A stretch of DNA of 64,000 bases, from contig JAJGOT010000131.1 of the NCBI GenBank assembly GCA_022457155.1, positions 163,501-227,500 on the forward strand, in the 5' to 3' direction. Both the position numbers and the translations under genes were made by a program. The DNA is from Cladopsammia gracilis (taxonomy: Eukaryota > Cnidaria > Anthozoa > Scleractinia > Dendrophylliidae). The notes beneath the pieces are model-generated. The model saw only the letters and a list, made by a program, of their open reading frames with translations. It did not search any database and was not told the DNA's origin. Below, piece by piece: positions 8,463 to 32,371 of the stretch; the stretch's first letter is position 1; every line of letters starts with the position of its first letter.

Positions 8463-8900
8463 GTGACGTCATACCTAACTGTAGTTAGTGTTTTTGGTCA
8501 ACTTTGCGGTCACACCATGTAGTTAAACTACATATAGCTCTAATTAGCGTACGGATGACTTCAGAATTAAAAGAGGTTCGTGACGGCCCTTATTGTTGAT
8601 CTGTGAAATGTCAACATGGTTGACCAACGTAAAGTGTGTCTAGTTTTTCTTCTTATTTATTTTTTTTGTGCGGCAAACCATCAGAGAAAAATGAGAAATA
8701 AGCTGAGAATTTTAATAGATGCTTGATAGTTGCATGTAATTTTTTGTTTGTTGTTTTTGGTTTCCCCTTCGCTTCACGCTTGGTTTCTTATTTGGCATAT
8801 TTATATATGTTCATCTCGCACGTACATAAAGAATTGTCACATTCTGATTGGTTGTTTGTTTGTAAACTTAAGACTAACCCATGAACCCTGCTTGGGCATA
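8463..8900. other. Left flank of the CACTA element; host repeat module
   Basis: At 8478..8540 a module reads CTAACTGTAGTTAG, then about 20 bases, GCGGTCACA, and TAGTTAAACTA. A similar module in the same orientation is found beyond the right end of the CACTA element, near 24165..24220. The rest is AT-rich with no gene. Confidence 0.45.
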
Positions 8901-9190
8901 CACTACCAGAGTGAACAATGTGAAAAATATGTGAAGATCATGTGAAATACATGTGAAAATTTTTACCCTGTGAAAAATGCAGTGAAAGAAAATATGTGAA
9001 ATTTTAGACTGTGAAAAAACATGTGAAAACCTTATGTAAATTTCACATGCTGTTTCACAGGTATGGACTATGTGAAATGTCATGTGAAAACCTTTATCCA
9101 TCTCACATTGAGTTTCACATGTATGTGAAGTAAAAAGACCCTGTGAAATATTATGTGAATTGAAAGTTGGGTGACAATACTGACATGTGA
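8901..9190. repeat. Left subterminal TGTGAAA array of CACTA
   Basis: About 17 copies of TGTGAA or its complement, mostly within ATGTGAAA, spaced irregularly at 10-30 bases and in both orientations. Plant En/Spm elements carry arrays of short motifs here that bind the accessory protein; the same role is inferred. Confidence 0.8.
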
Positions 9191-10287
9191 AAAATGAAGT
9201 TAACTAAACTTTTTGATCATGATCAAGCTTTTATATAACCTTATTAGTTATGTACACTGCATGCTTATAATTAATATGTATAAATGCTATATTTAATACT
9301 GAATGTTCACTACTTGCACTTTGACCTTTTTTTGTAATGTGCATGCATGGGCATTTTCTTTTCTAGCATGCACACCACTGCTATACATGCATGTATATAC
9401 CATTATATATTTACATTGCTAGTGTTTATTTTACAGTACGTTTAATTCAGTTTACCCATGTGAATAAATTGTGGAGGCACCTCCACACACATACTATTAC
9501 ATTTTTCAGGCTTTCTTTTCAACTGCTAATTATTTTAAGTTGCTATATAACTTAGATCCCTTTCAATCTTTCCACCACTGCCTTCAGCCTATATGACAAG
9601 AAAACATTTGATCATGATCATGATGAGCAGTTCTGATTATTTTAAAGAAATTCAAAAGTTGCACTGAATAATGTACACTTCTCCATTTCTATATCCTTTG
9701 CTGAACTTTAAGAAAAATCCATCATTTCTGTATTTTAATTAACTCTGTACATTTAAACTTAACCATTATTCACTGCTCACCTGTCAAGCGAATGCGGTCA
9801 TATGTTAGAAAGTGCATGCATGAAACTGAAACACTTAAATATTATAGAAAACTATGTATAATCTGATTTCACTGAAAATCTCTAACAGAAGTCTGGAAGT
9901 TCTCTGGGTCATCTGGAGATACTTCATCTACATTATATCAGTTTCCTCTTAAGGTAATTGACTTTTCTGTGAACCATGCCAGAGTATGGTGAGAGATATA
10001 AACCTGTAGATTAACTGTTGGTCAACTTGTGTCAAGGGGGTCACCTACCCATTCCCCAAGCTAAGGGTGACTATGTTAATATGGCATGGGTTTGACTAAA
10101 TTGATCATGAGAGGAAGTTAATTAAGTTGAATGAATAAAATTATATGTTTTGATTTTCATTATTTAGTTCAACAATTATATATAATGTGAATAAAATGAT
10201 GATTTGTAAACAAGATACAACATTTCAAAAGGCAATTGAGGCCTGTATAAAACATGTGGCATAATTCCATGGCCACTAGCCATTTGC
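9191..10287. other. Non-coding part of CACTA downstream of transposase stop
   Basis: AT-rich sequence between the left subterminal array and the stop codon of the transposase. It probably holds the 3' UTR. No further exon was recognised. Confidence 0.5.
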
Positions 10288-13200
10288 TTAAATGTTCAAA
10301 ATCCATAAAAGCGACTCATTCTCATCATCCACAGCTGTCACAAGTGGGAAAGAAAGGCAATTAAGTGCAACAGTCTTCATTTCAAATAATGTTGTGTCAA
10401 CATAGTACAGAAGGCTCTCAAGGTCTTGTTTGCATGATGTGTAAAGTTTCATGGTCACAAATTCACTCTCCTTGCCAGAAAGCTGATCATGCAATGTAAT
10501 GAAATGAATTATCCTTCCAATTTGTGCCTTGTCTCCACAATTGATATTCACTACCGAAGAGACAACAGCTCCAGAATCCAGTGTGAAGGATTTCAACACT
10601 GATGTCTTTCCATGCAGTTGCTTCTCCATGGAAAATGTTCGCTTAACATGTTGCTCGCTGTCGGTAGCCAAAGAAAAGGCACCACAGCCCACCAGGTCCT
10701 CTGTTTCTTGTTTAGTTAGTTGATACTGATTGGAAGGGGTTTCCTTGGTGTCTTTTTCAGTATCCAAATCCAAAGGCAAAAGGCGTCCTGAAAGTTTCAT
10801 GTACTGTACCCAATCAAATAGCTGATAAAAAAAAAAATAACATGATTAAATCATCTTAAAATTATCCACATTTGGTGCCTAATAACAAAAGAAAACTCTT
10901 AAAATATAAAACTTTGCTGGCTAAATATTGTAACATTAAGTTATTCTGCAACCAATATTTTAAACTAGTTAAATGAATTGAAACCATCATTTATTCGTCT
11001 CTTTTAGCTAGGGATGGACCATTATTTGTTTCTTCCATCCCTTTCCTTTTGTGAATTTTTATTAATAAATCAGGGCTGTCACTAAGATTTCAAGTTACCG
11101 GGTATATGCAATTAGTAAGCGGGGAATTCAACAGCTAGGAAGTTCTTTTGTTTTTTTTTTCTTTTGTTACCTATGCCAAAGTAGCCGGGCTCATGCTCAT
11201 AGAAGCCGGGGGAAATCCCTGGCCCTTGATGACAGCCCTGATAAATACATTACATGTGTGTATTTATTTGCAGCTTTAATTTGACTGTGTTTACAAACAT
11301 GAAGAAACCCTAAAAGCTTGTTTTTTAGAAGGAAGTGTTAATTAATGGAAAGGGGCACTCAGTCAAGGGAGGGGTCCGTTATGAACAAAATACAGTAAGC
11401 AATCTCACACGTATGTTATCCAAACTTATACATATATACTGAGTAAGCAGTTCTTTTGGACTCACTCTGTATGTTTCCATAACAGTAGCTTCTGGAAAAC
11501 GGCGATTTTTGACCCTCTGACAGATCCAACTGTTGAATCGTTCATAGCAATACATCCACCAACTGTGGACTGGGCCTTGTTGCTGAATCCCATTTACAGA
11601 ATGGCGCAAGATGTGAAGACTTATGGTCTAGACAAAGAATCATCATGTAATGTACAGTGTAAGTAACATGTGGTCTGAACATGCTCAGAGAAACATAGTT
11701 TCTGATATATAATATATAATCCACTGGCAACAGTACAGTGCCACATTGCAATATTCTCTGTTTAGTTTATTTTTCATGCACACCCGTTTGTAATTTAAAG
11801 CTTTTCTGGAGGACATGCATCTTATTCTTTATTACAAAAGGTACAGTAAACACCCACATAAAAGAACAAGTGGATTAAGAACCCTCAGGCTGACATTTGG
11901 TCAATAAACCACCATACGTATATAATATAAAACAGTTGGGCTGATCTAAGTATGTGTGCTGGACCATTACAAACACATGTTACAGTATTTCACAGAAGGG
12001 ATTGGAGTTGCTCGAGTACAGGCTGATTTTCTGGTTTCCTGTTATAAAACAGTGATTGCATAATATTTAACCTCTCAGTAATCTTGATCACTGTACCTCC
12101 ATTTCCAGAAACAATTTTAAGAACCTTTCAATAACATCTTTAGCCTGATTTCTCACTAAGCACCCAATATATTATAAGAAACGCATCAGCCTGCTGTACC
12201 CCCAAATCACTTGTTTTTTATGCAGGTGTTTACTGTATTAGAGAAACCAATAGCCATTAGTACAGTGTAAGTATTTCTCAAAAAAGTGGAAAGAGAGTAA
12301 TGTTGACTTTTGATTATGTAATGATTACTACTAAAGTACCTGAATACTGATAGGGAAGTCACGTTCTAACTGTGCACAGACTTCATTTACTTCCTTTTCC
12401 AAGGCAGGCAAGTCATGCAAGTCCTGAGTGTCACTACAAATCTTCTCAAGAACATCCAAGAGGCGGAAGAGTGAAATCCTTTGGTTTCGTCCAAGAAGGC
12501 CTCTTAAGCAGAACTTTAAGATCCCATCTGTGGCAAGCTATCACAATATGTTATAAAGAATAACAGTCAAACCCCACTTTTCAGCCTACTCTGTAGCTAC
12601 ATGTAGTAAGTAACCACCTTACTTTTCTAGTCAGAAAAGTTTTGTCACAACCTTTCTACCTCTTTTAAGCTGCCACAACCAGTTCTTAGGACTGGTGGTT
12701 TAAAAATTTATATAAAAAAACATTTTTCATCTCTGGAAGGAGATCAATGAACATAATTTCACACACACATGTATATTCAATATACATGTTCACAAACAGC
12801 TAACACACGTTAACAATATATATCATAAGTCAAAAGATGTAACTTATGTTTCATTCACTACATGTACAGTAGACAATCAAAACCTAAAAAAAACTGCAGC
12901 TCAGGACTGTGTAAATGTACACACAATGGCCACCTTCTATTTGGTAGATACTCAACATTACTTAGCACATATATACAGTACATATACATAATTATACAGT
13001 ACAAATTTTTTTGTACCTGTTTCCAGTCATGTGATTTGAGGTATGGTTTCTTACAGAAGAAAGCACATGGCTTCCAGCCATAACCTGAGGGCACGCACAC
13101 ATTTAGTGCACGCTTATCAGCCAGTTTGAGGTCAGCACTAGATAGACGGAATGGGGCAGCAGGTAGCATGATTTTCTCGCTCTTTGATTTGCCTCTTTTT

Positions 13201-16200
13201 CTCGCTGTTTGTTCTGTTTTGGTTTTGTCATCTAGAAAACAATAAAATAATGATAAAACAGATCAGACCATTAGAAAAACCTTAATGTTTTTTACTTTGC
13301 AGATGGATTTAAACATTCTGAATTGAGCCGTTTTGCTTTGTAAACTTCAGTGCAATACAAGAAAGCAAATACAGAAAGCAAATTTGTTGTGTGAATGTTT
13401 TCATGACTAAGTTGAAACCGAAAAAGGAAGTTGCCCACCCAAATACTGTTGTTCAATTGGAAACAACATCAGAGGTTTTTAAAGGTTTTTTGACTGGAAA
13501 GTCACCTTCAAATAATGTTAAACTGCAGTAGATCTTTGGATAAAGCAAAAATTTATTGTGTACTTTGTTCATTTCATGAATAAATTTGCAAGTTTTGATT
13601 AATGCGATCAGATGCAATTTGAGGTTCGTGATTATGAAAAATCACACCACTGGCTAGCCACTTTTGTGAGGTACATGTAACTGTATAAAAAATAATAATA
13701 ATGACTTAATTAAACCTAAATTGCAAAAAGGTACTGTTATAATAATGAGGTGGCTATATAAATGTGGCCACTGCAATAAAATGTAGAAACCTACTTTGTG
13801 TGGCCTTTCCAGCTGCTTCAGGCTCATCAACTTGCTTTTCCTGTAGCCAGCATCCTTGAAAACGACCCAACTCCTTTTCTGCCTTTCTAACTTTTATGCT
13901 ATCACCTTTACCAGTAATTAAGTCAAAAAATGTGCAGACAATATTTTTGAGGTCATGCATCAGGTCAGGAAAAGCTTGATTTGGCCTGTCATGGTTGGGC
14001 AACAACATGAAACAGTTGACACCTCGTGATCCAGTAGCTTTAGCGACATTACTGGCTTGAGCTTTGTTTTTTGCTCTGTTGTGGGCAACTGAATTCCAGA
14101 GAATATCATTGATATTGGCTTCTTCTGGTTTGGACCTTTTTTCTGGTTTGGAATCTGGAAAGGACTTTTTCTTTTTACGCAACGGGTGATCCTCACTAAG
14201 ATAGCGTCTGTTTTCCAGATAGACTACCTTGTCCAAAGAAGACACATATTGGCCTAGAAACAAACAAACAAAGGAACCTTTGTACACTGCATGCATTTAA
14301 TGACATTTTGGCCACAATATTCAATATTCATTTCATTCATTGGTTAGCTTTATATTAAGTACTGGGCTTGTCAGATCAAATTATGACTTACATTTGAGGA
14401 CTGAAAAAAATAATTACTCACCCCATAAAATTCCAAAAAACTGAGATGCAAAACTCCTTCCTCCCCTTTAATGAACTTAGCTATTCACTTCTGACATCCA
14501 TTTGAACACTAGAAATTGATTTGTGTTTCATATTGGCATGGTATATGTTATGTAGTTTGAATTTTACCAGTAACCTGATGTTCTGACAACACATAAAACC
14601 CAAATATCAGTCAAATGTAAAACTCTGTCCAAGAATTACCTTCCCCTAAAATTAATAAGTCCACCCAACATCTTCTCAACAGAAATAACCCAGAGCTGGT
14701 ATAGAATAATGTACCGGTCAAATCGAAGCATCAACTCCACCCCCGCCCCGCCCCACCCTCCCTTACGGCATACCTCGGGAAGGAAATTTGATAATCTAAG
14801 TTTTCCAGGGGACGGGGAATTTAATTGATTTCCTGTGACATGTCTCCCCTGCACGAGGCATGCTGGAAATCATGGCAGAGGTGGACATGGTGAAGTGCTG
14901 TATAGAAGATTTTAAAGGAAAAAATTGTGTGTACGTGGCTGAATGGCTGAAAAGCCAAAGCTTGCATAAGCTTTGCGCTGTATTTAAAGGCATTTGAAAT
15001 GTTTTTTTTATCATGCTTTGAATATGAATGTATTGTTGTGTTTACAATATTAAATAACAAAGGTCAATTACTTTAACCAGCTGCATGTATTTATGCATAT
15101 TTTAATACATGATTTCAGTGAAAAGGCATGAATGTCTTCAAATGTAGTAATTTAAGTAGGTGGAGTGATTTAATAGGAAGCTTTAGATGTTGCATGATTT
15201 GCGGTATAAAAGCTGTGCATTCAGAGTGTTGTATATGTTGTGGGTCAAAATTTTCCTTGGTTCAAATTTCATTTTCCTTTGTTTTTGGCTATGGTAATGT
15301 GTGATAATGAGTTTTAAACAAGTTTAAAGGAAAATGAAATTTGAACCAAGGAAAATTTTGACCCACAACACATACAACACACTGAATGCACAGCTTTTAT
15401 ACCGCAAATCATGCAACATCTACAGCTTCCTATTAAATCACTCCACCTACTTAAATTACTACATTTCATACATTCATGCAATGATTAAAAGCTTATAGAA
15501 TAATAAGTACAAAATTAAAAAATTATGATGTCTATTGAAACCTGTCTGCAGACTCGGCATCAGGAGCACTGGAAAGCTACATGGTTAAAGGAGTAATATG
15601 GTCACATATTACATGTACTTTCCCAGGGGTGGCGGCATTTGATCATCTAGATTGGAGCGTTTGAATGCCTTTTTGGATTGGGGAGGGTGGAATTTGAACA
15701 CTAATTTTCTACAAATTCAAATGCCCAAAGGGGTTGCCTGGGGAAGGGGGGGGGGGGGGGGCGTTGGGGGGGATGTTGAAGCTTTGATTTGACCGCTTCA
15801 CAAGTTTGCAATAGTATCATCCAGCTGTTATCATTTTGTCGAGGTATTCAGGGTTCTCCCTAAATTTTAGCTCAGCAGGTAAGGGATTTTTGCTAAGCGG
15901 TAAAGGGTAAACTGTGTGTCTTAAAAATTTTCCGGGGGCAAGTGGTTACGGGCGGTAATAAGTGCTGCTTCTTCAAACGGTAAATTTTACCGGTTACCGC
16001 CTGATAAGGAGAACCCTGGGTATTTAAAAAGTTAACCATTGATAAGATAATGAGTAATGATGGCAACATGGTTCACTTTTTAGTTTTATATTGATCAGGT
16101 TGCCTTACCTCTAATCTCACACCACATGCAACCTTGTAAGGCAGCCTGGGCTGCTGCTGTAAAAACCTTTCCCAGACCAGGATAGTCAAGAACATAACTC

Positions 16201-17606
16201 ATCAGGGCAACTCTGAATGTAAATGAAGCATTTCTGAAGGCATCAAAAAATGTAGCACCAGAAAGTTCCAGAAATTCATCTACAACTATTTCCAGGTATG
16301 GATCAAGGTGTTTTGGCTCTTGGCCATCTGTTTGAGCTGGAACTATACCAGCTAGCATGATATTCTCAAACAGATTGCGTACGTTCCTAGGTAGGTTAAG
16401 GAGAGTAAGCATAATTGGCCACATGGAGTAAGTGACCTTGTTGCTGCTAAACGGATTGACGCCATCAGTGGAAAGTTGTAACAGCATTCCTCGGAGATCG
16501 CCATTGCAGACTCCTTCCTCAGAGAAAGCTTGTTTCCAGGAAGGGGAATCATGAATGTCACGCATAATGGAAGGGTCTTCACACGCATCACGATCATCAG
16601 CATGGCTCTGAATGACTTCTGAAATACTTGCGCTTCCAAACATTCTTCTCCAACGAGGTCCAAGAGGAAAATAAAGGAACCTTCTTCTAGCACTCTTGTT
16701 GGCCCAATATCGATTGGATCCGCAAACAGGACACTTTTGCAGCTTTGAATAATCGTATCTACCAGTCTTGCGAAAGATGACACAGTCATTCGGACAAACA
16801 TGGTAACATATTGTCGGAAGCAGAAATGGCTTGACAAAGTTGTACGCTGCATCATACGACCCAGGAAGGTTATTTGGCTGTGGCAACAAACGCTTCTTCA
16901 ATCGCAAAAGATCTGATAAGGCACTTTTGCTTGTTGATGGGTGTTCAGTAAACCACATAAAATAACTCGCTAATGCTTGAAGAACAGTGACATCACTATT
17001 TTCAAAAAGAGGAATCTTGGCATTTTCGCTGTCATAAATGTCGTGTTCCATTTCAAGGTCACAGTCTTTGTAAGAGCTACTATCAGAAGGTAAAGATTCA
17101 TTACTCCCACTATCGTCGCTTAACGTGGCTAAATCATGTTCTATCGAGACTTCATTGTCACTTGATGACTGTGAACTCGTAATGTCGATTTCGTTTTGAA
17201 TTATTTCGCTATCACTTTGCTCACTGATACTTGTCGAATCTATCCGACGTCGTTTGAAATCTTTACCGCTGTTTTCCTCACATGAATCTGATAGTTCCGC
17301 AAATGAATCATGTCTGTAATCGTTCGACTTGGCCAACAATTCATCCTCGCTCCCGCTTTCAGATAACTGATTATCATGATCACCTGCATACTGGCCAAAC
17401 ACTTCTAGATGCCTCTTCACGATCTTACTTGATTGGGTGCATTCGGATTTGCAATTTTTACAAGGACAAAGATTGCCTTTGCTCCTAGTTCTCTTTGCCG
17501 TACTTGCTTTCTCGATTATGTGCTGCTCAGCGTATGGCATCTTCCTCGCTCGTCGTCGTTGAAAGTCGTCCGCGTTGCAACCTCGAATGCACGGTTGCAT
17601 GGTCAC
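10288..17606 (-). CDS. CACTA (EnSpm) transposase, 6 exons, 1,021 residues
   Basis: Exons: 17606..16109, 14253..13795, 13231..13017, 12537..12340, 11627..11466, 10821..10288. Lengths 1498, 459, 215, 198, 162 and 534 sum to 1,022 codons including stop, and each junction keeps frame at a GT donor and AG acceptor. Seen: a Cys cluster CPCKNCKSEC (about 47-56), an acidic Ser-rich linker (95-200), two zinc-binding pairs CPNDC and CPVC (271-295), then FPLGPRWRRMF, STDGVNPF (380-386), LPRNVRNLFEN, CMWC and DLMHDLKN (about 596). The D in STDG and the D-x-M-H motif match conserved positions of the Transposase_21/TnpD family. The C-terminal part has WWMYCYERFNSWI, also typical. It should act in the nucleus, cutting at the CACTA ends. 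M23 (MPYAEQ) is an alternative start. Introns carry MITEs at 11071, 15122 and 15849. Confidence 0.9.
11071..11240. mobile_element. MITE with CAGGGCTGTCA termini, 170 bp
   Basis: Terminal inverted repeat CAGGGCTGTCA/TGACAGCCCTG, flanked by ATAAAT on both sides (11065..11070 and 11241..11246). It lies in the intron between transposase exons 5 and 6. Ends look hAT-like, but the duplication is 6 bp. Confidence 0.8.
15122..15480. mobile_element. Nested hairpin MITE, about 360 bp
   Basis: Outer arms pair TAGTAATTTAAGTAGGTGGAG with CTCCACCTACTTAAATTACTA and extend through GCATGATTTGCGGTATAAAA. The inner hairpin (about 15236..15371, GTTGTGGGTCAAAATTTTCC and its complement) belongs to the same family as 20918..21050. 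Lies in transposase intron 1. Confidence 0.75.
15746..15761. repeat. Poly-G run, 16 bases
   Basis: Uninterrupted G tract in a G-rich stretch of transposase intron 1. Confidence 0.85.
15849..16018. mobile_element. MITE with CAGGGTTCTCC termini, 170 bp
   Basis: Terminal inverted repeat CAGGGTTCTCC/GGAGAACCCTG with GGTATT directly repeated on both sides (15843..15848, 16019..16024). Internal GCGGTAA and ACGGTAAATTTTACCGG motifs. Lies close to the donor end of transposase intron 1. Confidence 0.8.
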
Positions 17607-18090
17607 TAGTTACATATTGACCTTTCGTTTACCATATACGGTGCGTACACAGGAAACCCGAGCGCTTTTTAATATGGTTGCGTATGTGCGAGTCTCGGGT
17701 TTCAAAACTTTTGGCGCATACATACATATCAAAACCGCACAGTCAAACCGACTTCATTCTGATGCTGATCCCTTGCAAAACGACGAAAGAAAGACACGAC
17801 CACAAAGGTATTTCGTTTTTAATTTTTTATTTCAAAATACATAAGTTTTTATAGCGATATTTAAAGCTTTAAAGCTCTGATCTAGCTATAAAGCGGTCGG
17901 GTTCCCTGAGGTGCATGGAATCGAGTCGGTGATCAGTTGTCGGTAAATTGACCCCACCTTTACCATATATGTAATACAATCAGAGCTTCAAAACGAACGG
18001 CGCCAAAAGTGTAGTGTTCGTGGTTCCTATCACTGATCTCTATATACTTCGATCTAAAAGAATCGTTTTCGTGGCTTTTTTCATTTTAAA
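17607..18090. promoter_or_regulatory. Divergent promoter region of the two CACTA genes
   Basis: 484 bases separate the two outward-facing start codons. TTTGGCGC at 17710..17717 and its complement GCGCCAAA at 18000..18007 match the E2F-type consensus TTTSSCGC and lie in mirrored positions. The region is richer in CpG than its surroundings. A TATA element is not evident. Confidence 0.5.
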
Positions 18091-20886
18091 ATGGCAGATC
18101 ACGAGCAAGCCGTAATTTCCGAATTTCTCGCTTTGTTGAAAAGAAACCCAAATGCGTTGTCCAGCGTTTTGCAAACGACACAGGCAGCGATTACCTCCAA
18201 CGAGCAAACGGATGCGTCGAACCCATCAGCAAGCACGAGCTCTAGATCTAGTTTACCCACTTCTGACGAAGAGTCTCCACAGGACAGGGCAGTCGACATC
18301 GTTTCCACCGCTTATAGCGCAGAAGATCTGCTGGCAAAACGAGGGGCAAAGGGCAAAGGATCGAAAGCCCAACAAACATTTAGGGTAAGTCGAATCTTAT
18401 ATTTAGCCATTTTATAACAACTTGCATTGAGACAACCGAATAATTATCTCGAAAGATCTTGAAATGCATATATTTTTCTCGTGTTCTTTTACTCGTACAC
18501 ACCAGCTACACGTATTCTTTACACATAAATTATGTAATTAACTTACTCTCAGCTCTAGCGCGGATCAATCGATGACATGCATGCACTCCGATCGAATCGA
18601 TCTGCAAAATAACACTTTTTGGTCATGAATATGCATTCAATGTAATGGAGAAAATTGCTATTGTGGCTATTGTTGACTTAAAATTAAAGTGTGAGTGATT
18701 TGGCGGTGATACAGAGGTGCATGAAGCCAAATGACGCTTTTCTTCGTTCAACACACTAATCTCGATCGGTTGGCAGTTGCCTTCATGCGATCAGTATAAA
18801 CTTCCAACGATCCCACGCGCGCAAACTGATGCTCATTCATCAAATCTTCGGGTAAACACGCTCAAATGCATGGGAAGAAACGTCCAGCGTATTTAATGGC
18901 TTTTCCTTTTCTTTTCCCAACTTGGAATTAAAGCTGTTTGTTTCATTATTTAAGCTTATACGCTAAAATGTCGATCTGCTGCACGTTCGTTGGATTCGCG
19001 TTTTAAAAAGCGCGGGAATATTGAGTTAATAAGTACGCGTGCGTAGTAGAACTCGATCTAGAAAGCCTGTAAGCCTGCAGTACAGTGTGGGACAAGGTTT
19101 TGAGAAATAACATTTCGGGGGTAAGATTGTGCATGTGCATTGTGTGGCAGTTAGCAGCTAGGCTTCACAGGAAAAAAAGAAATCAAATTTTAACACTTTT
19201 AATGATATGGCTTCCCACTACCCGCTGAGTTCATCTTTGTCTACAATTGTTTACAGTTTGTGTTGAGGGAATCTGCAAAGAAATGTGGTCTATGGGAAAA
19301 ACCTCCTCTCATTCGAGAGATCAGCTGCAAAACCCTTGAAGTTTTTACTAAAAAGGTAAAGACAGGATTTCATGATAATCTTCACTTACATGTACCATAC
19401 TTAAAGGAACTGTGTCGTCACGGATTTTAGCAAAATTTTTAGAGACACGAAATACACAAGAAGGTACGGAATTTAAACTATAACGCTTGGGAGATTAGCT
19501 TATATTTGTTTATAATGATCGAAGCTATGCGTCACTTAGATCCACATAAGTAAGCTTATTTCTTCGCTATTATTAAGTTTCATAGCGAGTATTTTGCAAT
19601 TATAAACTCAGCCGTGACACAGTCCCTTTAATTATTTTAAACTATTCCTGTCATTTATGGTTTTATTATATTCCACCTTTAATTCTGAACCGATTGCTTA
19701 ACAGTTAACTTAATCTACATTCTAGTGTCGCAAAAAAACATAAAAGAAAAACGAGGCAATAGCTTTTATTGTTGCAATATGTACTTGTACTTTCTGGCTG
19801 TGGTCAACGTGCATACATTGTACAAGTTAAAATAATTAAAAAAAAAACTTTCAATATTTTCTACAAATTATAAGATAATTAGATAACAATGACTTTCATG
19901 TTTAAAGGTGATCAGTGCACTTCCCCAACTGGAAGGCCATGCCCACAACATCAGGAGGAGGCTTTCTGAAAGTTTGATTTACAGAAGAAATCAATTAAAA
20001 AATACAAAATTTTGGAAGCGTGCTTTAAAGGTAATATTTTAATTGTCATTTTATCCATGGAAAGATTAATCTGTACTTATTAGATGGAATGAAAAACAGT
20101 CTATTTATATAAGCTACATGTAGTACAGTACATACATCTAGTTATTGACACCCTTAATAATTCATCTGTTGACTCACAGTTGGTAGAATGTCACATGGTC
20201 AGTTAGACAATACTTGTGGATTTAAAAAGGGGTAAAGTCTGCATTCGGGCCTACTGGCCTATCAGTCTAGAGTTTATGACTTAGTTTCTGTTTCAGCATT
20301 AAATTCGCCATTACCCATTGATACACCCAAGTGGAGGTGAAGACAGAAACTATGAGAGTTATGTGGGTTGCCAGAGAATGCAATGGACACTCTCCTGTGC
20401 TCGAACCTGGACTGCTTGATCCGGAGTCCAGCATGCCAACAATTATGCCCCCTCCCCCTCCCCCCCCAGTGGATTAAACCTTTACCTTAATATTCTACTT
20501 AATAAGTGCGGTCTGGCTTCAAAAGAACTGTTATTTTTTTTTTAGATTGCAATCTCATAAAACCAGTTGGAAAATTAAATAATACACTACATACAGTGCA
20601 TGTAGGTTTAAATTAAATGTTAATATTATATTATTGGCTGTTCATGTCCAGGAGCAATGCAACCAATTGATCACCTTATATAATGTATTTGTAAGTGTAT
20701 TATGTATATTTGTTTGTGTTTGTATATACCTAATTCAATAAAGGTTGCTTTGGTCATTGGTAATTGGGCATTGGGAAGCTATTGTTTGGCGGTCACTCAA
20801 GCGAAGCATTGCATTGTGTTCTGTATGCTAAATGCTAATTCCCAATTACCAATGACCAACTGCCAAAGCAACCTTTATTGAATTAG

Positions 20887-20923
<37 letters not shown>

Positions 20924-23222
20924 GGTTCAATTTTATCCTTGGTTCAAATTTTATTTTCCTTTGTTTTTGGCTATGGTAATGTATAATAATGAGTTTTAAA
21001 CAAAGGAAAATAAAATTTGAACCAAGGATAAAATTGAACCACAACATATATATATATACATGTATATAAATAATGGAGTCGTCTTTTGTGACTTCCTTTT
21101 AGTTTTCCCTTTCATATTAGTGATTATGTCATTTTTCTTGTAGATGGATAAATATAAAGGTGAGGCCTGCCAGAGGCCTTTAGTTCCTGAAAAAAGCCAG
21201 GAAGTAAACACAACACTTCTCCTGGTGGAGAAGTCTCTGCAGGCTGTTAATGAAGATGTAGATCTAGATGAGGAGACAGGATTCTCCTTTTCTTCATCGT
21301 AAGTAAAAAAACAAATAAGTTAATATACAATGATCAGCTTTTTTTCATTGAATATCTCCATCCCAAATGTATAGCCTTTATCAGGGGCAGATCCAGTGGG
21401 GGATTGGGTGGCTGGCCACCACCCCCCCCCCCCCCCCCTTTAGATCATCTGCAGGGGTTTCATTAAGGGTGTGCCCCACCCCTTTCTGCCCTTCCAATCA
21501 TGTGCTCACTTGCTCAAACTCATTGCCCTATTGTTTAAAATCTTAATGGACCTTAATGAAATCCATGCATTGATTTTAACAGGTTTTTTTTAGTTGCAAC
21601 AATTTAAAAAAACAATTACTGACTTAGGCATATACCCGTAGCCACGCCATATAAAAAAATCCTGGATCTACCCCTGCTTTATGCATGTACATGTATGACC
21701 TCTTGGTTTCATGTTAAGTGTACAAATCATTATGCATGAGAGGGTAACAACTGAAAGCCACAAGTTAAATCCTGCCTAATATTTTCTTGTTACAGGGAGG
21801 AGCTGTTCGTAATGGATGGGACAAGAAAAATTGCACGAGCAACTTTTCTACGCACATCAAAAAAAGACAGTAAGTACAGCAGAAATGTAAACCTGCCTTA
21901 AGGCCATTTCATTAAAAATATCCAATGTACATGTATAACTTAAGTATTATAAATATTTTATAGCCAAAGATCTGTCCAGTATTTCTCCTAGTCACTGCCA
22001 CCTGTCTTGTGCACAGCAATTCCTTAATTAATGCATCATCAAAGGATTTCCTGTTATTGACAGTCCATATTTTAAGTTAAAAACATAGTCTTAAGAGTAG
22101 CTGTGTCTTGTGATGACCTTATCTACAATCATTGTAAGCCTGTTAAACTCCCTTGATCAGTTACCTACTCGCCAAAAGGTAAAACCACCTACTTAAAAAG
22201 TTTTATCATCCCAAGGCTTATAACCATGTTTTTATGATATATGTGTATGTACTAATCTCTGTTTTTTAATTGAAGGTGACTTTGCAAAGCTTGTTATGCA
22301 GTCAAACTTTCTGAAGACTAATGAGGAAAAAGACAAAATAAAGTTAACTGGACCTAACTCGGAACAATTTCTCCACAACATCAAGGTAACCACAGTTAGG
22401 TGTACTTAAAATCGAAATTAAAATAGCTAAAATTCCTTGAAAGAAACTAGTAGTGTCTAATTTTTTGTGCTATTTATTTAATTTAATTAGGTTGGTGAAA
22501 AATTTTATTGGCCTGAAAACCAGTTGGTTAGCAAGTCCAGTGCGCCCAAAGAGGGTAGGGGTCGAGAGGTGACAACGGTACAAGTGCCAGCAAAGTCTAC
22601 CTCTAGTTGCAACAAGAAAAGCAATCATGAAGGGGTGGAACTGGGCCATAGAAAGGCAAATTCTGCACCCAAGGAAAAATCTGTGCCCAATGAAAAATCT
22701 GTGCGCAAGGAAAAATCTGTGCCTAAGCAAACATCCGTGCCCAAGGGAAAATCCGTGCCCAAGGGAAAATCCGTGCCCAAGGAAAAATCTGTGCGCAAGG
22801 AAACATCTGTGAACAAGGAAACATCTGTGCCTATTGAAAAATCTGTGTGCAAGGAAAAATCTCTGCCTAAGCAAACATCTGTGCCCAAGAGAAAATCCAT
22901 ACCCAAGGAAAAATCCGTACCCAAGGAAACATCTGTGCACAAGGAAACATCTGTGAACAAGGAAACATCTGTGCCCATTGAAAAAAACGTGCCCAAAGAA
23001 CTGGAAACACCTGATCGGGATGTGCCCAAGGAAACAAATGTACCTAATTGCATGGAGAAAGGGGATGATCATGGGGTGTTGCATGTGCCAGAAAAACGCA
23101 AGTACAAGGGTTATGTATATGTACCTGTAGGCAATGATGACAAGAGCACCTGTACTCCTGAGCCAATACCAAACAAAAGGCGCAGGCTGCCAAAAGTCAG
23201 CTTGGACTTTGATTATATGTAA
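18091..23222 (+). CDS. CACTA accessory (TnpA-like) protein, 7 exons, 528 residues
   Basis: Exons: 18091..18384, 19257..19355, 19908..20030, 21144..21298, 21796..21869, 22276..22385, 22491..23222. Their sum is 529 codons including stop, with all six junctions in phase at GT-AG sites. The N-terminus (MADHEQAVISEFLALL) is helical, followed by a Ser/Thr-rich linker. Exons 2-3 encode a basic, aromatic segment (KKCGLWEKPPLIREI, NIRRRLSESLIYRRNQLK) that could bind DNA. Exon 7 begins FYWPEN and then holds about 19 six-residue repeats of the type SVPKEK (residues 343-456), ending with a basic NKRRRLPK that could be a nuclear signal. I recognise no named domain. Position and basic character suggest the partner that binds the TGTGAAA arrays, as TnpA does in plant En/Spm; this is inference. 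Confidence 0.85.
20729..20887. mobile_element. Hairpin MITE, 159 bp, TGTATATA duplication
   Basis: Arms CCTAATTCAATAAAGGTTGC and complement; TGTATATA sits directly outside both ends, fitting an 8 bp hAT-type duplication, though the right copy merges into a TA run. Lies in intron 3 of the accessory gene. Confidence 0.7.
20888..20921. repeat. (TA)n microsatellite
   Basis: Alternating TA between two adjacent MITEs in intron 3 of the accessory gene. Confidence 0.85.
20918..21050. mobile_element. Hairpin MITE, about 130 bp
   Basis: Arms TGTTGTGGTTCAATTTTATC and complement, with a loop TGGCTATGGTAATGTATAA. Same family as the inner hairpin near 15236..15371, so two copies of one family have entered the same CACTA element. 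Confidence 0.75.
21382..21676. mobile_element. MITE with CAGGGGCAGATCCAG termini, 295 bp
   Basis: Terminal inverted repeat CAGGGGCAGATCCAG/CTGGATCTACCCCTG, flanked by CTTTAT on both sides (21376..21381 and 21677..21682). Contains a long C run. A relative with CAGGGGCGGATCCAGG ends is at 61063..61336. Confidence 0.85.
22662..23003 (+). repeat. 18 bp coding minisatellite (SVPKEK repeats)
   Basis: About 19 units of 18 bases in frame within exon 7 of the accessory gene. Variation is mostly at the third to sixth residues (R, N, H, C or I for P; T, Q or G changes). The pair SVNKET-SVPIEK occurs twice, showing a higher-order duplication of several units. Confidence 0.9.
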
Positions 23223-23826
23223 CTTAAAATTTATATCATTTTATCAATGACATTTTATAGCTAGCTACAAATATGTATGGAAAACTACTGATCAAAAATT
23301 TCAATAATTTTAAACAGATATAGATTTTGTAAATAAATAATTTTTTTACACATTGACGACATTTGCATTACATGTACTTTTATTATATTATATTTATCAT
23401 GATCATACATAATTATATATATATATATATATATGCTTGAATCAAATGTTGAACATTTTAATTTATGATCGGAAAACATTATTGACTTATATAAAAATGA
23501 TGCTTAAATTGTCAGGATTATTAATTAATTTATTCTTCAATTGCCCATTTCATCAAGATAAAAATTAAATATTTGCCATGGTTTCCTAAATCAATATTTA
23601 TGTTAATGATTTATTTTTTCTTTAGTGTATTTGTTTTAATTTGACTAGGCTGGCTTGAAGCTAAAAATAAATTGTTGTTTCAAAGGTTTCAAATTACCTG
23701 TTTTTGCTTTTAAAACGTTATGATATGCTGTGCATGCATGTATTTGAGATCAAGACAATAACTCATGATATGGCATGCTATACATTATAATGGAACAAAT
23801 TAACACATTTTGAAAAAGTCTGAATT
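23223..23826. other. 3' non-coding region of accessory gene
   Basis: AT-rich stretch with a (TA)n run near 23417 and several AATAAA-like words, consistent with a 3' UTR and polyadenylation region. No gene seen. Confidence 0.5.
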
Positions 23827-24110
23827 TCACATACTTTTTCACAGTAAATTGGGTTATTGGGAGATTTCACATACTTTTTCACATCATGTCATTTAGCCTA
23901 GTCCCATGCAATGCATGATGTGAATTTGTTATTTCACATGACTATTTCACATCATCCCATGATGTGAAAAGGAGGACCCCATTTCACTTGGTTTTCACAT
24001 GGCTATTTCACATTATTTTTCACACATGTGGATGTGAAAAAGCAGATGAAATTTTCACACCTTTTTCACATTATCTTCACATGTTTTTCACATGGTTTAC
24101 TCCAGTAGTG
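23827..24110. repeat. Right subterminal TTTCACA array of CACTA
   Basis: About 16 copies of TTCACA or TGTGAA, in both orientations with TTCACA dominant. This mirrors the left array and runs into the terminal CAGTAGTG. Confidence 0.8.
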
Positions 24111-24365
24111 ATAACTATAGTTAGTCTGTATTTTTCTGGATCACCGAGGCATAAATTTCCTAATTATAGTTAGGGCGAACAGAGAAGCGGTCACATTACC
24201 GAAATAGCTAACTATAGTTATCCCTGTCTTAACTATAGTTAGTAGCCCAGATGTGACTGCATCCATTGAGTGTAGTTATATGGTACAAAGTTTAAAACTA
24301 CTTTGTAAAAGCTAGGGGAAAAAAACTTAGCAAAAAAAAGTCTGCCATACAGTGCCTAAAGGAAA

Positions 24366-27661: not shown

Positions 27662-27879
27662 TATTGTTTCGCGGGTTTTGTGAAAAAATTCAATGCGTCG
27701 ATGTTCTAACAAACGTTTAAAATCTATTATAACCCTTTTGAGACCGGATTGGAGCGGTTTATGTAATGTTTACTACATGAGCGGGAGTGTTGTATCGGCC
27801 TATACAATCACGAGCCGAAGGCGAGTGAATGTATAGTGTCGATACAACACGGACGCGAATGTAGTAAACAACTTGTGAA

Positions 27880-27975
27880 ATTCACATTCACATGTAAATT
27901 AGATACAACCACTCGTGAGTTGTATCTGGAATGCAAATTAGATACAACCACTAGTGAGTTGTATCAAGATTGTAT
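27880..27975. repeat. Tandem AAATTAGATACAACCACT units
   Basis: Two direct units of about 40 bases (AAATTAGATACAACCACT, then GTGAGTTGTATC), each itself a small palindrome. They lie at the outer end of the inverted duplication. Confidence 0.6.
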
Positions 27976-28285
27976 CGGCCTATACAGGGTAATCATGTGA
28001 TTGGAATGGCTCATTTCTATTTGTTTGTACTATTATGAATTATTAATGAAGTTTACAAAGTATGTTGAAATATGTATTAGGTAAGTTAAGTAGCGTGACA
28101 TGGTGACTTAAAATTACATTGGAAATGTGTATTACATCCATCTCTCACAGCAAAATGTTCCCAGATAAATATCAGAAAAAGTCACGAGGTTTGGTGGGTG
28201 TTAAAAGTAAGCGCGAGCAATTTCCACGTTTACTTTGTTTCGCATTTACAGGGTTTTAAATTCTTAATGCTGTTATTCTTTTCAG

Positions 28286-28357
28286 ACATTTACCTGTAAA
28301 TGAAATTCGTGATCTGCCCCCTGGAATATTTTCTAATTTATCGAAGTTGGAGTATTT
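28286..28357 (+). pseudogene. Orphan 72 bp LRR exon in left arm
   Basis: An AG acceptor (TTATTCTTTTCAG) and a GTAAGT donor bound exactly 72 bases encoding one leucine-rich repeat (HLPVNEIRDLPPGIF, SNLSKLEYL). It is the inverted copy of the LRR exon at 32443..32372 and faces away from the rest of that gene, so it is probably not spliced into it. Confidence 0.7.
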
Positions 28358-28590
28358 GTAAGTATGGTTTCCTTTTAATCTCTTTGTGTGGCCTGTTTAT
28401 GATCTCGTATCCCTTATACAAGTTAAAAATGTACTTTATGTTATAAAAATCCAAACAGAGTAAAAAGGGGGATAAATGATGGAATAATTCCTACCATTTC
28501 GGTATTCAAATCAAACGTCCTCACTCGATAAAAAATCTGAGAGAATGAATAACTATATTTGGGAGAACACCAGAAAATACTGGAATATTA

Positions 28591-29931
28591 CAGTGCAACT
28601 ACCTCAACCGGGGACCTCCGAGGACTTTCAGCCAATCAGAGACCGATTCTTAAACAAAGAATTGGGCATGCGGACCTCACGGGAAACTGTATCATTTTTC
28701 GATCCTAGATTTTTGGCCGTCTTGTTCGAAAACCTTGCGCGTTTTCTTTACGGCTAAATTGCAAAAGCTATTGATTTTACAGTGGAATCCCGATTTTTCA
28801 AACCTCCAAGGGAAACGGAAATTGGTTTGAAAAATCGAAGGTGGTATCGACTGGACTCCACTGCACTTCTACAACAAGAAATTATTTTAGATCTGGATCT
28901 AAAAAATTCAGTTGCAAAACAAAAAGAGAAACAAATATCCCGTTATCGGAAGCGCTTGCGTATCGGAAAAAATCATCCTGGTAAGCGGCTGGGATGTTTT
29001 TATGTCAACGAGACAAGTGTTCAGATTTGGGTTTTTGGCTATAGAGCGTATGCACATGACGTCACGGCGGCCATATTGGTGTACCAAAACAATAGAACGG
29101 CGGCCATGTTGGTGTACCAAAACAATCCTGTGGGATTTGAACGCTTTTCTTATGTTAACACTTTCTTTTGTTCCAATAAATTTGCATAGCTGCTTGCCAC
29201 GTGAGTGCATACGCTCTATACGGGATTTCTCTACATGTCGTTACTGTATGAAATTCGTAAACTTCTCGTTCGAAATAAAAAGCGTTTTATTTGCATTTCC
29301 GTAAAAATAGTTTTATAGCAATCGAAGAGGAAAAATAGCAGGGTCAATCGCAGGAAAGCCGCTGAATGTTGCGTGACGATTTCATTTCCCGAATTAATTT
29401 CTCTAAACTACATGTTGAGGGCTCCAATTTTTCCGTAAAACATTTCGTTGTCGACGAAAGGATCTTTTTCTTATTTTTGGTTTACAAAGTTTTTCAATTT
29501 CAATACTTTCAACTGCATTTGGCGTGAGAACGATGCGCCCTCTGTGACCTTTTGGAGCATGAAAACACGAGTTGTTCAAATCGTAGTCGCGTAAGACATT
29601 TTGAACAAAATGACGTACGGCTGGTTCCAAGTTCTCGAGCAATCTGGCGCTGAGATGCCCCATTGTGATGCAGATTCAAGACTCTTTCGCGAATAAAGTA
29701 AGGCAAATTTCTCCCGTTATCGAAACGTCCACCAGCCTGATTGATTCTGAGCTGAACAGACATAATTTTGACTTCTGTTTGCGGGAAGGGAACATTAACG
29801 GATGAAAATTGAACAAACGGTCATGAATTTGGTTATATGAAAGCAAATTTCTTTCGAAAAATGATACAGTTTCCCGTGAGGTCCGCATGCTGAAAGTCCT
29901 CAGGTGGGCCCCGGTTGAGGTAGTTGCGCTG
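28591..29931. mobile_element. Tc1/mariner-like transposon, 1,341 bp, internally decayed
   Basis: Ends CAGTGCAACTACCTCAACCG and the complement of CAGCGCAACTACCTCAACCG, each bordered by TA. The right arm of the inverted duplication has the empty site (GGAATATTAATGAACGCG at about 32125), confirming insertion at TA. Terminal repeats extend at least 75 bases (GCATGCGGACCTCACGGGAA). It carries the start of a transposase on the minus strand. Confidence 0.85.
29403..29763 (-). pseudogene. Tc1/mariner transposase, N-terminal paired-type HTH only
   Basis: The frame begins MSVQLRINQAGGRFDNGR and shows the helix-turn-helix RVLNLHHNGASQRQIARELG, typical of paired-like DNA-binding domains in Tc1/mariner transposases. 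The frame shifts after GTSRTS and continues in another frame as VQNVLRDYDLNNS and KGHRGRIVLTPNAVESIEIE. No catalytic D-D-E core is found in the remaining 0.8 kb of the element, so this copy cannot make a working enzyme. Confidence 0.7.
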
Positions 29932-30061
29932 TAATGAACACGTGGACAGCGAACTAACATCCACCAAAATTGAACTCGAACAGAAAACAGCCAACCTTTA
30001 CAAAACCACACCACACCAAATTTAAGCATTAAAAAAGAAAAAAACAAAAGGGTATATTTCT

Positions 30062-30304
30062 CTAGATTATCCACGCCGCCAGAACTCTCACATTCTGTCG
30101 AATCCTTCTGTAAAGTGCCAGTGGGTACAATTTCAGTTTCACTTGCCAAAGCCGTAGACGCTCGAGCTCCAGCTTCATTTGCAACTTGTAGAGTTTAATG
30201 CTCCGATTCTGCAGTCGGTTGAAGGGGCTAAATGGTCGTTGCAAGACTGCAACTTCTTCAGCAGAGAGGCCAGAGAGGTTGGCAGGACGCGCTGGAGTCG
30301 TCAT
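30062..30304 (-). CDS. Small hypothetical protein in left arm
   Basis: Starts MTTPARPANLSGLSAEE, continues AVLQRPFSPFNRLQ, then is rich in Leu, Arg and Lys. Present in both arms of the inverted duplication, but the two copies diverge by small indels after FNRLQ, so at least one C-terminus is not conserved. Function unknown; it may be a relic. Confidence 0.3.
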   Translation of the reverse strand: MTTPARPANLSGLSAEEVAVLQRPFSPFNRLQNRSIKLYKLQMKLELERLRLWQVKLKLYPLALYRRIRQNVRVLAAWII

Positions 30305-31754
30305 CTTGCCGTGACTTGTCAGTTTTGGACTTAGCGCAAATAACACCCATGCATAATTACTTGAGTCTGATATAATGCTTATTACGTCATCAGGGAGGAT
30401 ATGAATATTCATGGGGTTTGAATAAGTCCAGTGATTCAAAACATAAAAAAATTATATTCACAAGCAAATAATTCTTACTTAAGTTGTTTCAAGCCAGAAT
30501 ATGTACAATTTCTTATGACGCAGCTGACTATTTTGACTCCACTAACACGAGACATTCAATTAGGCCCTTACACATATGCCGAATCTAATGTAAATGACAA
30601 GAACAACATATTTTGCCAGGAGCCATAATCAGGATGGAAACCGTGAGCGTTCCGGCTCCACGCAAACCCATGTTTAAGGACGTGTTGGGCTATTTTTAGC
30701 AGAAATTGCGCAACCCTTAACGCAATGAGAGCGCCGGAACCTATTACCTTTCACTATCAAGATTCTTCTTTTTTATTAACCTCACGTTCTAACGCATTAA
30801 CGAGATAGCTTTAAGAGCCCTTTGATTAAGAGAGACGGTCCCCTCGCAGATTTCTAGCTTGGACTAACTTAATGTACAATTCATTCATAAATAACACCAT
30901 TAACAACCATCTACTCATAACTTTAACATTTGAATTACATTTTTGGTGTATGTTCCTGGACAATCAAGTGTCTCAAAACTTACAGCAGGAGTCAACTGGA
31001 ACACAATTCCCGATTGGGTCAAAAAAAAAAGGAAACAAGCTAAGTTTTTTAAAGCCAGTGAATAAAAAACAATCAAAACGTGAATTGCCTCGTAAAATAA
31101 AATAAAATAAACATTTTTTTTAGCTTTAATTATAAAGAACTTTAAGTATATTTTTAACGTATATAAGAAATATAACATCATCAACACATATTAACTCCTT
31201 CTAATCAAAACTTGATGTCATAATATTACAGTACGACGCGCCTTACCCTGAGCACTTAACAAACTTTTTTAAAGCTTTCCACGATATCACCAACTAATTC
31301 TTATAATCTTTTCGTAACTGCGGATGCCACATCTAGAGGGTGGTATTTAGTGGTTTTTCGTAGCTGGCGTGGCACAAGTTTCTGAACTTTTGAAATATAA
31401 TGTAAGTGAAATTAATTAAAAAGGATCAAGGTAATAGACAGAATATGTTATTAGGATACACTGACTAATTCGTCCTAAATAAACTATTTCACATTGAATG
31501 TCTCGTGTTAGTGGAGTCAAAATAGTCAGCTGCGTCATAAGAAATTGTACATATTCTGGCTTGAAACAACTTAAGTAATGAATTATTTGCTTGTGAACAT
31601 AATTTTTTTATGTTTTGAACCACTGGACTTATTCAAACCCATGAATATTCATTAACCTCCCTGATGACGTAATAAGCATTATATCAGACTCAAGTAATTA
31701 TGCATGGGTGTTATTTGCGCAAAGTCCAAAACTCGGCTGACAAGTCACGGCAAG

Positions 31755-32042
31755 ATGACGACTCCAGCGCGTCCTGCCAACCTCTCTGGCCTCTCTGCTG
31801 AAGAAGTTGCAGTCTTGCAACGACCATTTAGCCCCTTCAACCGACTGCAGAAGCGGAGCAAGTTGCAAGTTGCAAATGAAGCTGGAGCTCGAGCTGGAGC
31901 TCGAGCGTTTACGGCTTTGGCAAGTGAAACTGAAATTGTACCCACTGGCACTTTGCAGAAGGATTCGACAGAATGTGAGAGTTCTGGCGGCGTGGATAAT
32001 CTAGAGAAATATACTCTTTTTTTTTTTCTTTTTAGTGCTTAA
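31755..32042 (+). CDS. Small hypothetical protein in right arm
   Basis: Mirror copy of 30304..30062: same first 32 residues, then a different frame (ETEIVPTGTLQKDSTECE). The small repeat GAGCTCGAGCTG, absent from the left copy, accounts for one length change. Function unknown. Confidence 0.3.
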   Translation: MTTPARPANLSGLSAEEVAVLQRPFSPFNRLQKRSKLQVANEAGARAGARAFTALASETEIVPTGTLQKDSTECESSGGVDNLEKYTLFFFLFSA

Positions 32043-32371
32043 ATTTGGTGCGGTGTGGTTTTGTAAAGGTTGGCTGTTTTCTGTTCGAGTTCAATTTTGG
32101 TGGATGTTAGTTCGCTGTCCACGCGTTCATTAATATTCCAGTATTTTCTGGTATTCTCCCAAATATGGTCATTCATTCACTCAGATTTTTCATCGAGTGA
32201 GGACGTTTGATTTGAATACCGAAACGGTAGGAATTATTCTATTATTTATCCCCCTTTTTACTCTGTTTGGATTTTTATAACATAGAGTACATTAAATTTT
32301 TTAACTTGTATAAGGGATACGAGATCACACAAACAGGTAACACAAAGAGATTAAAAGGAAACCATACTTAC

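Follow-up and report, generated by a model that had tools for sequence, protein, structure and literature searches.

Does an animal genome hold a CACTA transposon of the plant type that is complete from end to end and still equipped to move? This question is raised by a stretch of 64,000 nucleotides of contig JAJGOT010000131.1 (assembly GCA_022457155.1, positions 163,501 to 227,500; hereafter the window, with positions counted from its first base), in which an initial annotation had described a full-length, apparently autonomous CACTA element. We consider it very probable that the sequence at window 8901-24110 (15,210 bp) is a cut-and-paste DNA transposon of the CACTA/EnSpm superfamily, complete and autonomous in structure, that encodes a DDE transposase and a second, element-specific protein. 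The same coordinates were obtained as in the annotation, and the boundaries, with CACTAC...GTAGTG ends, are resolved to a single base. Read inward, the terminal 60 bases of the two ends are identical at 51 of 60 positions, and the triplet ATA is present on both sides. Among the CACTAC/GTAGTG pairs of the window (n=77), the runner-up to this pair scores 28/60, and the element's pair is the only one of the six best listed that has matching 3-bp flanks. The subterminal arrays reported for both ends were also found: GTGAAA or TTTCAC occurs 15 times in the left 300 bp, 15 times in the right 300 bp and only 6 times in the interior 14,610 bp, with an array period of 11 bp. A criterion for CACTA elements is the presence of such arrays, with 10-20-bp units that run in both directions (PMC8978399). 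The element is a member of CACTA/EnSpm, since the five features required, namely, the ends, the 3-bp target-site duplication (TSD), the arrays, the domains and the D/D/E motif, are all present.

The element contains two gene models arranged head-to-head, with 6 and 7 exons (13 in total); these exon chains are models spliced at GT/AG sites from the genomic sequence alone, and they yield the two uninterrupted frames, with 5 and 6 introns, that had been proposed. The transposase model on the - strand (1,019 aa) has no internal stops and was found to possess a Transposase_21 domain at residues 345-549 (E 5.1e-34) and a DUF4218 domain at residues 756-842 (E 3.2e-10), both above the curated Pfam cut-offs. 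Residues D379, D472, C491, C494, H793, H797 and E817 are conserved throughout the covering rows with at most one exception each; the rows comprise 27 animal-type and 24 plant relatives. The motif order D, D, E, with C2C and H3H between the second D and E, is present, and the conserved D, D and E are, according to the published motif order, presumably the catalytic residues. The transposase-associated N-terminal domain PF13963 was detected with E 1.4e-4 and 22.4 bits, under its cut-off of 27.7. At the C terminus no Pfam match to DUF4216 was obtained, and a weak test by hhalign against 23 motif-cut plant C-terminal pieces returned a probability of 0.1%; DUF4216 is missing from some plant CACTA proteins too (PMC8978399). 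The predicted structure of a transposase homolog has a RAG1-like fold in its catalytic part, at about 10% identity. A weak hint, from fold alone, is that the transposase C terminus (about residues 846-1019 in the window) may be BAH-like; searches for BAH by sequence were negative in ten transposase C-terminal pieces. The nearest named transposases, known here as proteins alone, are Transposase_21/DUF4218 proteins of Mizuhopecten (43% identity over 99% of the query), Montipora (45% over 79%) and Exaiptasia (54% over 62%), and the attribution to an animal genome fits named homologs from corals, sea anemones and molluscs.

The second gene, here called gene 2, is located on the + strand, and its 528-aa model is free of internal stops and ends in a lysine-rich repeat. 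A Pfam scan identified no domain over its cut-off and no RAG2-type domain match, and the predicted structure (a single model of low confidence) matched nothing. A search with residues 1-320 gave 5 matches among 3,357 candidate proteins: three Montipora models with 56-60% identity, one further protein with 57%, and a protein of the sea anemone Actinostola with 43% over 42% of the query. The three Montipora models have the N terminus and core in common with gene 2, the very end is present in two of them, and exon 3 is absent from all three. A profile search of 7,996 candidates gave at least 18 matches at E up to 1, which were those 5 and 13 others of 72-150 aa, mostly single exons. There was no plant homolog of gene 2 among the matches of the searches made.

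The annotation had proposed a search for other copies by the end sequences, and for this purpose the window's own assembly (877.8 Mb, 1,469 contigs) was used. At least 6 matches to the left-end 200 bp and at least 7 to the right-end 200 bp were obtained, the element itself included in each case. The only other place found with both full ends is C247:13514-28763 (15,250 bp), which differs from the window copy by 16 substitutions in 15,201 aligned bases (99.89% identity) and by 11 gaps of 1-21 bases each. Both of its genes are open and all splice dinucleotides are kept; the two transposases differ by one amino acid, and the two gene 2 proteins are identical. Contig C1269 has a 467-bp derivative that has kept both CACTA ends and has TTA on each side. 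The remaining matches are partial. C228 carries a 3' fragment, 91.9% identical to window 21427-24114, in which gene 2 pieces are present; the 17 kb examined contained neither a transposase match nor a left end. At C1281 only the left end is matched (75%), at C1112 both ends are matched weakly (68% and 79%), and short end matches occur at C467 (two that overlap), C261 and C70. As an observation apart, the terminal 200 bp of the C228 right-end match (259759-259958) are 100% identical to the window element, as against 91.9% over the whole 2.7-kb match, and because divergence is so uneven this suggests conversion or constraint at that end.

A sister family provides an independent view of the gene pair. 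Transposase exon 1 has 46 matches in the genome, of which those at the window and C247 alone are at about 100%. Family B comprises the copies C434, C716, C1137 and C27, which are 98.4-99.7% identical in the pairs compared (4 of the possible 6). All four have CACTAC at their ends (CACTACTAGG...CCTAGTAGTG), and the two ends share CACTACTAGG with 31/60 identity overall. A 3-bp duplication was found in three of them (C716 ACA, C434 TAA and C1137 TAC), so that 5 of the 7 copies with both ends read have one when the window (ATA) and C1269 (TTA) are counted. In C716, GTGAAA/TTTCAC occurs 18 and 12 times at the ends versus 18 times inside. The family B transposase is 57% identical to that of the window over 812 codons. 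Gene 2 matches were found in all four copies, with 3 or 4 exons each at 41-62% identity and head-to-head with the transposase. The AQQTFR junction that closes exon 1 of gene 2 in the window recurs in C716, the other junctions being read in C716 only, and the first gene 2 exon of C27 is 99% the same as that of C716. Transposase exon 1 has one in-frame stop in C434, one in C27 and none in C716 and C1137; in the codon comparison the single stop of C716, C434 and C1137 is intron read-through just before exon 5, and C27 has two stops. A side observation concerns C27:19848-35314, a complete-looking family B copy that contains some 3 kb of additional sequence and, like C247, lacks a TSD.

Differences between the families at codon positions 1/2/3 are 0.36/0.24/0.56 for gene 2 in C716 (119 codons) and 0.39/0.25/0.59 in C1137 (150 codons), and 0.35/0.25/0.60 for the transposase; because of this pattern, the data point to selection acting on both proteins. 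NG86 estimates for gene 2 gave dN 0.37 and a saturated dS of 3.8, and the transposase gave no usable dS. C408 represents a third, decayed lineage, whose transposase is 48% identical and has two stops, and it has one gene 2 exon in head-to-head position, matched in a small search set with E 4e-4 by the window protein and 4e-5 by the sister exon. The pairing was examined from the transposase side, with loci C1246 and C285 (weak transposase matches) left out, and gene 2 is present at 7 of the 9 loci examined: window, C247, C434, C716, C1137, C27 and C408. No gene 2 match was obtained at the controls, which were the 6 kb upstream of C1261, an outgroup transposase, and the short loci L034 and L036-L040. 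In a tree of 349 columns, the window, family B, Exaiptasia P0022 and a further protein, P0030, form one clade (support 0.998), and the animal-type rows (0.984) are sister to plant CACTA, with five more EnSpm loci from this genome outside both; given a midpoint root and a sample picked for its resemblance to the window, no more than the close grouping can be taken as firm. Among the other EnSpm families of this genome, L036, L038 and L040 (C1261, C804 and C1092) have open frames of 893-1005 aa and branch outside the clade of plant and window elements.

Several observations weigh against the proposed reading and need to be set beside its rivals. The flanking triplets of C247 (AGC / TTT) show no matching duplication, nor do those of C27 (GAA / TCG), and C247 might owe its origin to segmental duplication, or to a join in the assembly, and not to transposition. 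Its unmatched flanks and the minisatellite that forms its right flank would suit such an origin, which we nevertheless regard as unlikely: the flanks are unrelated to those of the window, and similarity sets in precisely at the left CACTA end and ceases at most 6 bases from the right one. Because the right flank is a minisatellite, the 3-bp repeat may have been lost there by slippage. Only two full-length copies of the window family were found, a low copy number that would also be expected of an element that moved recently and is now silent, that is, complete in sequence yet unexpressed or immobile in its host, either silenced or lacking a host factor. The hairpin elements within its introns also fit such silence, to which we assign an appreciable chance, though short of an even one; what speaks against it is that both frames are open in each of the two copies, which differ at few bases, and no sign of decay is seen. 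Recent movement of the window element is well supported because two complete copies are 99.89% identical. Of the suggestion that the copy is recent enough to be active, this part stood; we infer from the sequence that both genes may be expressed and that the element may be mobile at present, and the identity of the two complete copies is indirect support for autonomous activity. The description as apparently autonomous agrees with the uninterrupted transposase, its conserved residues of catalytic type and the second complete copy.

A further point of this kind is that a helper role of gene 2 obtains no support from the domain scan or the fold model, and another is that the decayed relatives C56 and C1276 gave no gene 2 match in 6.2-6.4 kb upstream. 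Gene 2 could accordingly be imagined as a captured passenger host gene without a role in transposition: it has no known domain and no plant homolog among the matches, and the proteins related to it in Montipora carry the annotation "uncharacterised". A captured gene would, however, hardly be expected to keep the same head-to-head position and a selection-type codon pattern in family B, where the transposase has diverged to 57%, or to retain one exon in the third lineage. In addition, two Montipora foliosa relatives lie on differently sized contigs and exon fragments have 15 and 28 member sequences, both as for a repeat, and we judge capture to be improbable. Judged from this gene content, gene 2 is a conserved partner of the transposase across a lineage and part of the element, because the sister-family elements carry the same gene pair and a third lineage keeps one exon. 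The RAG1-like fold of the homolog and the description of earlier animal relatives as TRC elements (PMC1636069) might finally suggest a Transib/RAG-type or TRC-type element instead of CACTA. This assignment is highly improbable, given CACTAC ends and a 3-bp duplication rather than the CCC ends and 2-bp duplication of TRC, the presence of Transposase_21 and DUF4218, and the grouping of the lineage with plant CACTA, apart from the five other EnSpm loci, in the midpoint-rooted tree.

For the CACTA transposon with two proteins that we favour, the following mechanism is proposed. The central divergent genes (Table 1) would produce a DDE transposase, by homology with a RAG1/Transib-like fold, and the element-specific gene 2 protein; the spacer between them is presumed from its position to be a shared divergent promoter. 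The transposase, probably aided by the gene 2 protein, would recognise the terminal repeats and the GTGAAA subterminal arrays, which are putative binding sites. It would then cut at the CACTAC ends, and staggered insertion would generate the 3-bp duplication. The gene 2 protein may assist in recognising the ends or in control and may be, by analogy, an accessory factor with a TNPA-like job. A bolder version is offered tentatively and is rather doubtful: an anthozoan lineage of plant-style CACTA elements would have an obligate partner, gene 2, of no named family and expressed from the shared central promoter, which would bind GTGAAA and do the TNPA job, whereas a BAH-like C-terminal module of the transposase, gained or kept, would steer integration by chromatin state.

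Table 1. Features of the CACTA element, in window positions
Feature	Position	Strand	Details
Target-site duplication ATA	left 8898..8900, right 24111..24113	.	read from sequence
Left terminal inverted repeat, CACTACCAGAGTG...	8901..8962	+	51/60 vs right end; 62-nt arms, 85% complementary
Left subterminal array, GTGAAA units, direct and inverted	8901..9200	+	12 GTGAAA + 3 TTTCAC / 300 bp
Transposase gene, 6 exons	10288..17600	-	17600-16109, 14253-13795, 13231-13017, 12537-12340, 11627-11466, 10821-10288; gene model, 1,019 aa
Hairpin insertion in transposase intron 1	15140..15466	.	141-nt arms, 98% complementary
Spacer between both start codons, 490 bp	17601..18090	.	from position
Gene 2, 7 exons	18091..23222	+	18091-18384, 19257-19355, 19908-20030, 21144-21298, 21796-21869, 22276-22385, 22491-23222; gene model, 528 aa
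Two hairpins in gene 2 intron 3	20701..21072	.	arms 20701-20777/20839-20915 and 20892-20966/20998-21072
In-frame 18-bp tandem repeat, last exon of gene 2	22653..23000	+	about 19 copies; repeat scan
Right subterminal array, TTTCAC units	23811..24110	-	13 TTTCAC + 2 GTGAAA / 300 bp
Right terminal inverted repeat, ...CTCCAGTAGTG	24049..24110	-	62-nt arms, 85% complementary

The intron hairpins of the two genes resemble miniature inverted-repeat transposable elements, and their arms are alike between 15140-15466 and 20892-21072. Other repeats were noted elsewhere in the window. Positions 56649-59046 hold a second candidate DNA transposon, with 356-nt perfectly complementary end repeats 1.7 kb apart that consist largely of 22-bp ATTCAACATTGTA-type units, and it is likely a recent insertion. 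A large inverted structure at 27796-30560 and 31493-32893, with successive arm pairs 92-100% complementary and a longer left side, may be a foldback-like element or an inverted duplicate. A minisatellite of 102-bp units, in which higher-order periods of 305 and 407 bp are also seen, occupies positions 44186-45798.

These data indicate that plants are not alone in having the two-gene form with CACTA ends and 3-bp duplications. Because both genes of this animal CACTA element are open and a second, near-identical copy exists, excision can be tried directly in cells. A conserved partner gene has been named, and whether transposition needs it is a simple plus/minus question. The RAG1-like predicted fold of the homolog furthermore makes the element of use for comparisons along the CACTA-Transib-RAG line.

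Clear parallels emerge with plant CACTA elements such as maize En/Spm and Jozin of Chenopodium, with which the element shares CACTA ends, a 3-bp TSD, subterminal units in two orientations, and Transposase_21 and DUF4218 (PMC8978399). In the plant elements, too, there is a second gene, which is described as of unknown function (PMC8978399). Maize Spm, which requires TNPA and TNPD, is described as a single alternatively spliced unit (PMC1636069), whereas the window element has a divergent central gene pair. The plant CACTA transposases listed are 22-30% identical to that of the window, and the latter differs from them by the lack of a DUF4216 match and by a gene 2 with no plant homolog among the matches. 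The animal TRC elements SmTRC1 and Spongebob of Hydra also belong to the Transposase_21/CACTA superfamily, but have CCC ends and a 2-bp TSD instead of CACTAC and 3 bp (PMC1636069, PMC4298943). RAG1/RAG2, BbRAGL and Transib have in common with the transposase homolog the predicted fold of its catalytic part, at the low identity given above. A two-gene layout also occurs in RAG, and the ends and duplication length of RAG/Transib differ from those of CACTA. In the literature searched, which did not include Repbase, where relatives may be held, neither a divergent two-gene animal CACTA element nor a BAH domain in CACTA was found. What is new here is a plant-style CACTA with a conserved divergent partner gene, probably in Anthozoa; in kind, the element is a CACTA.

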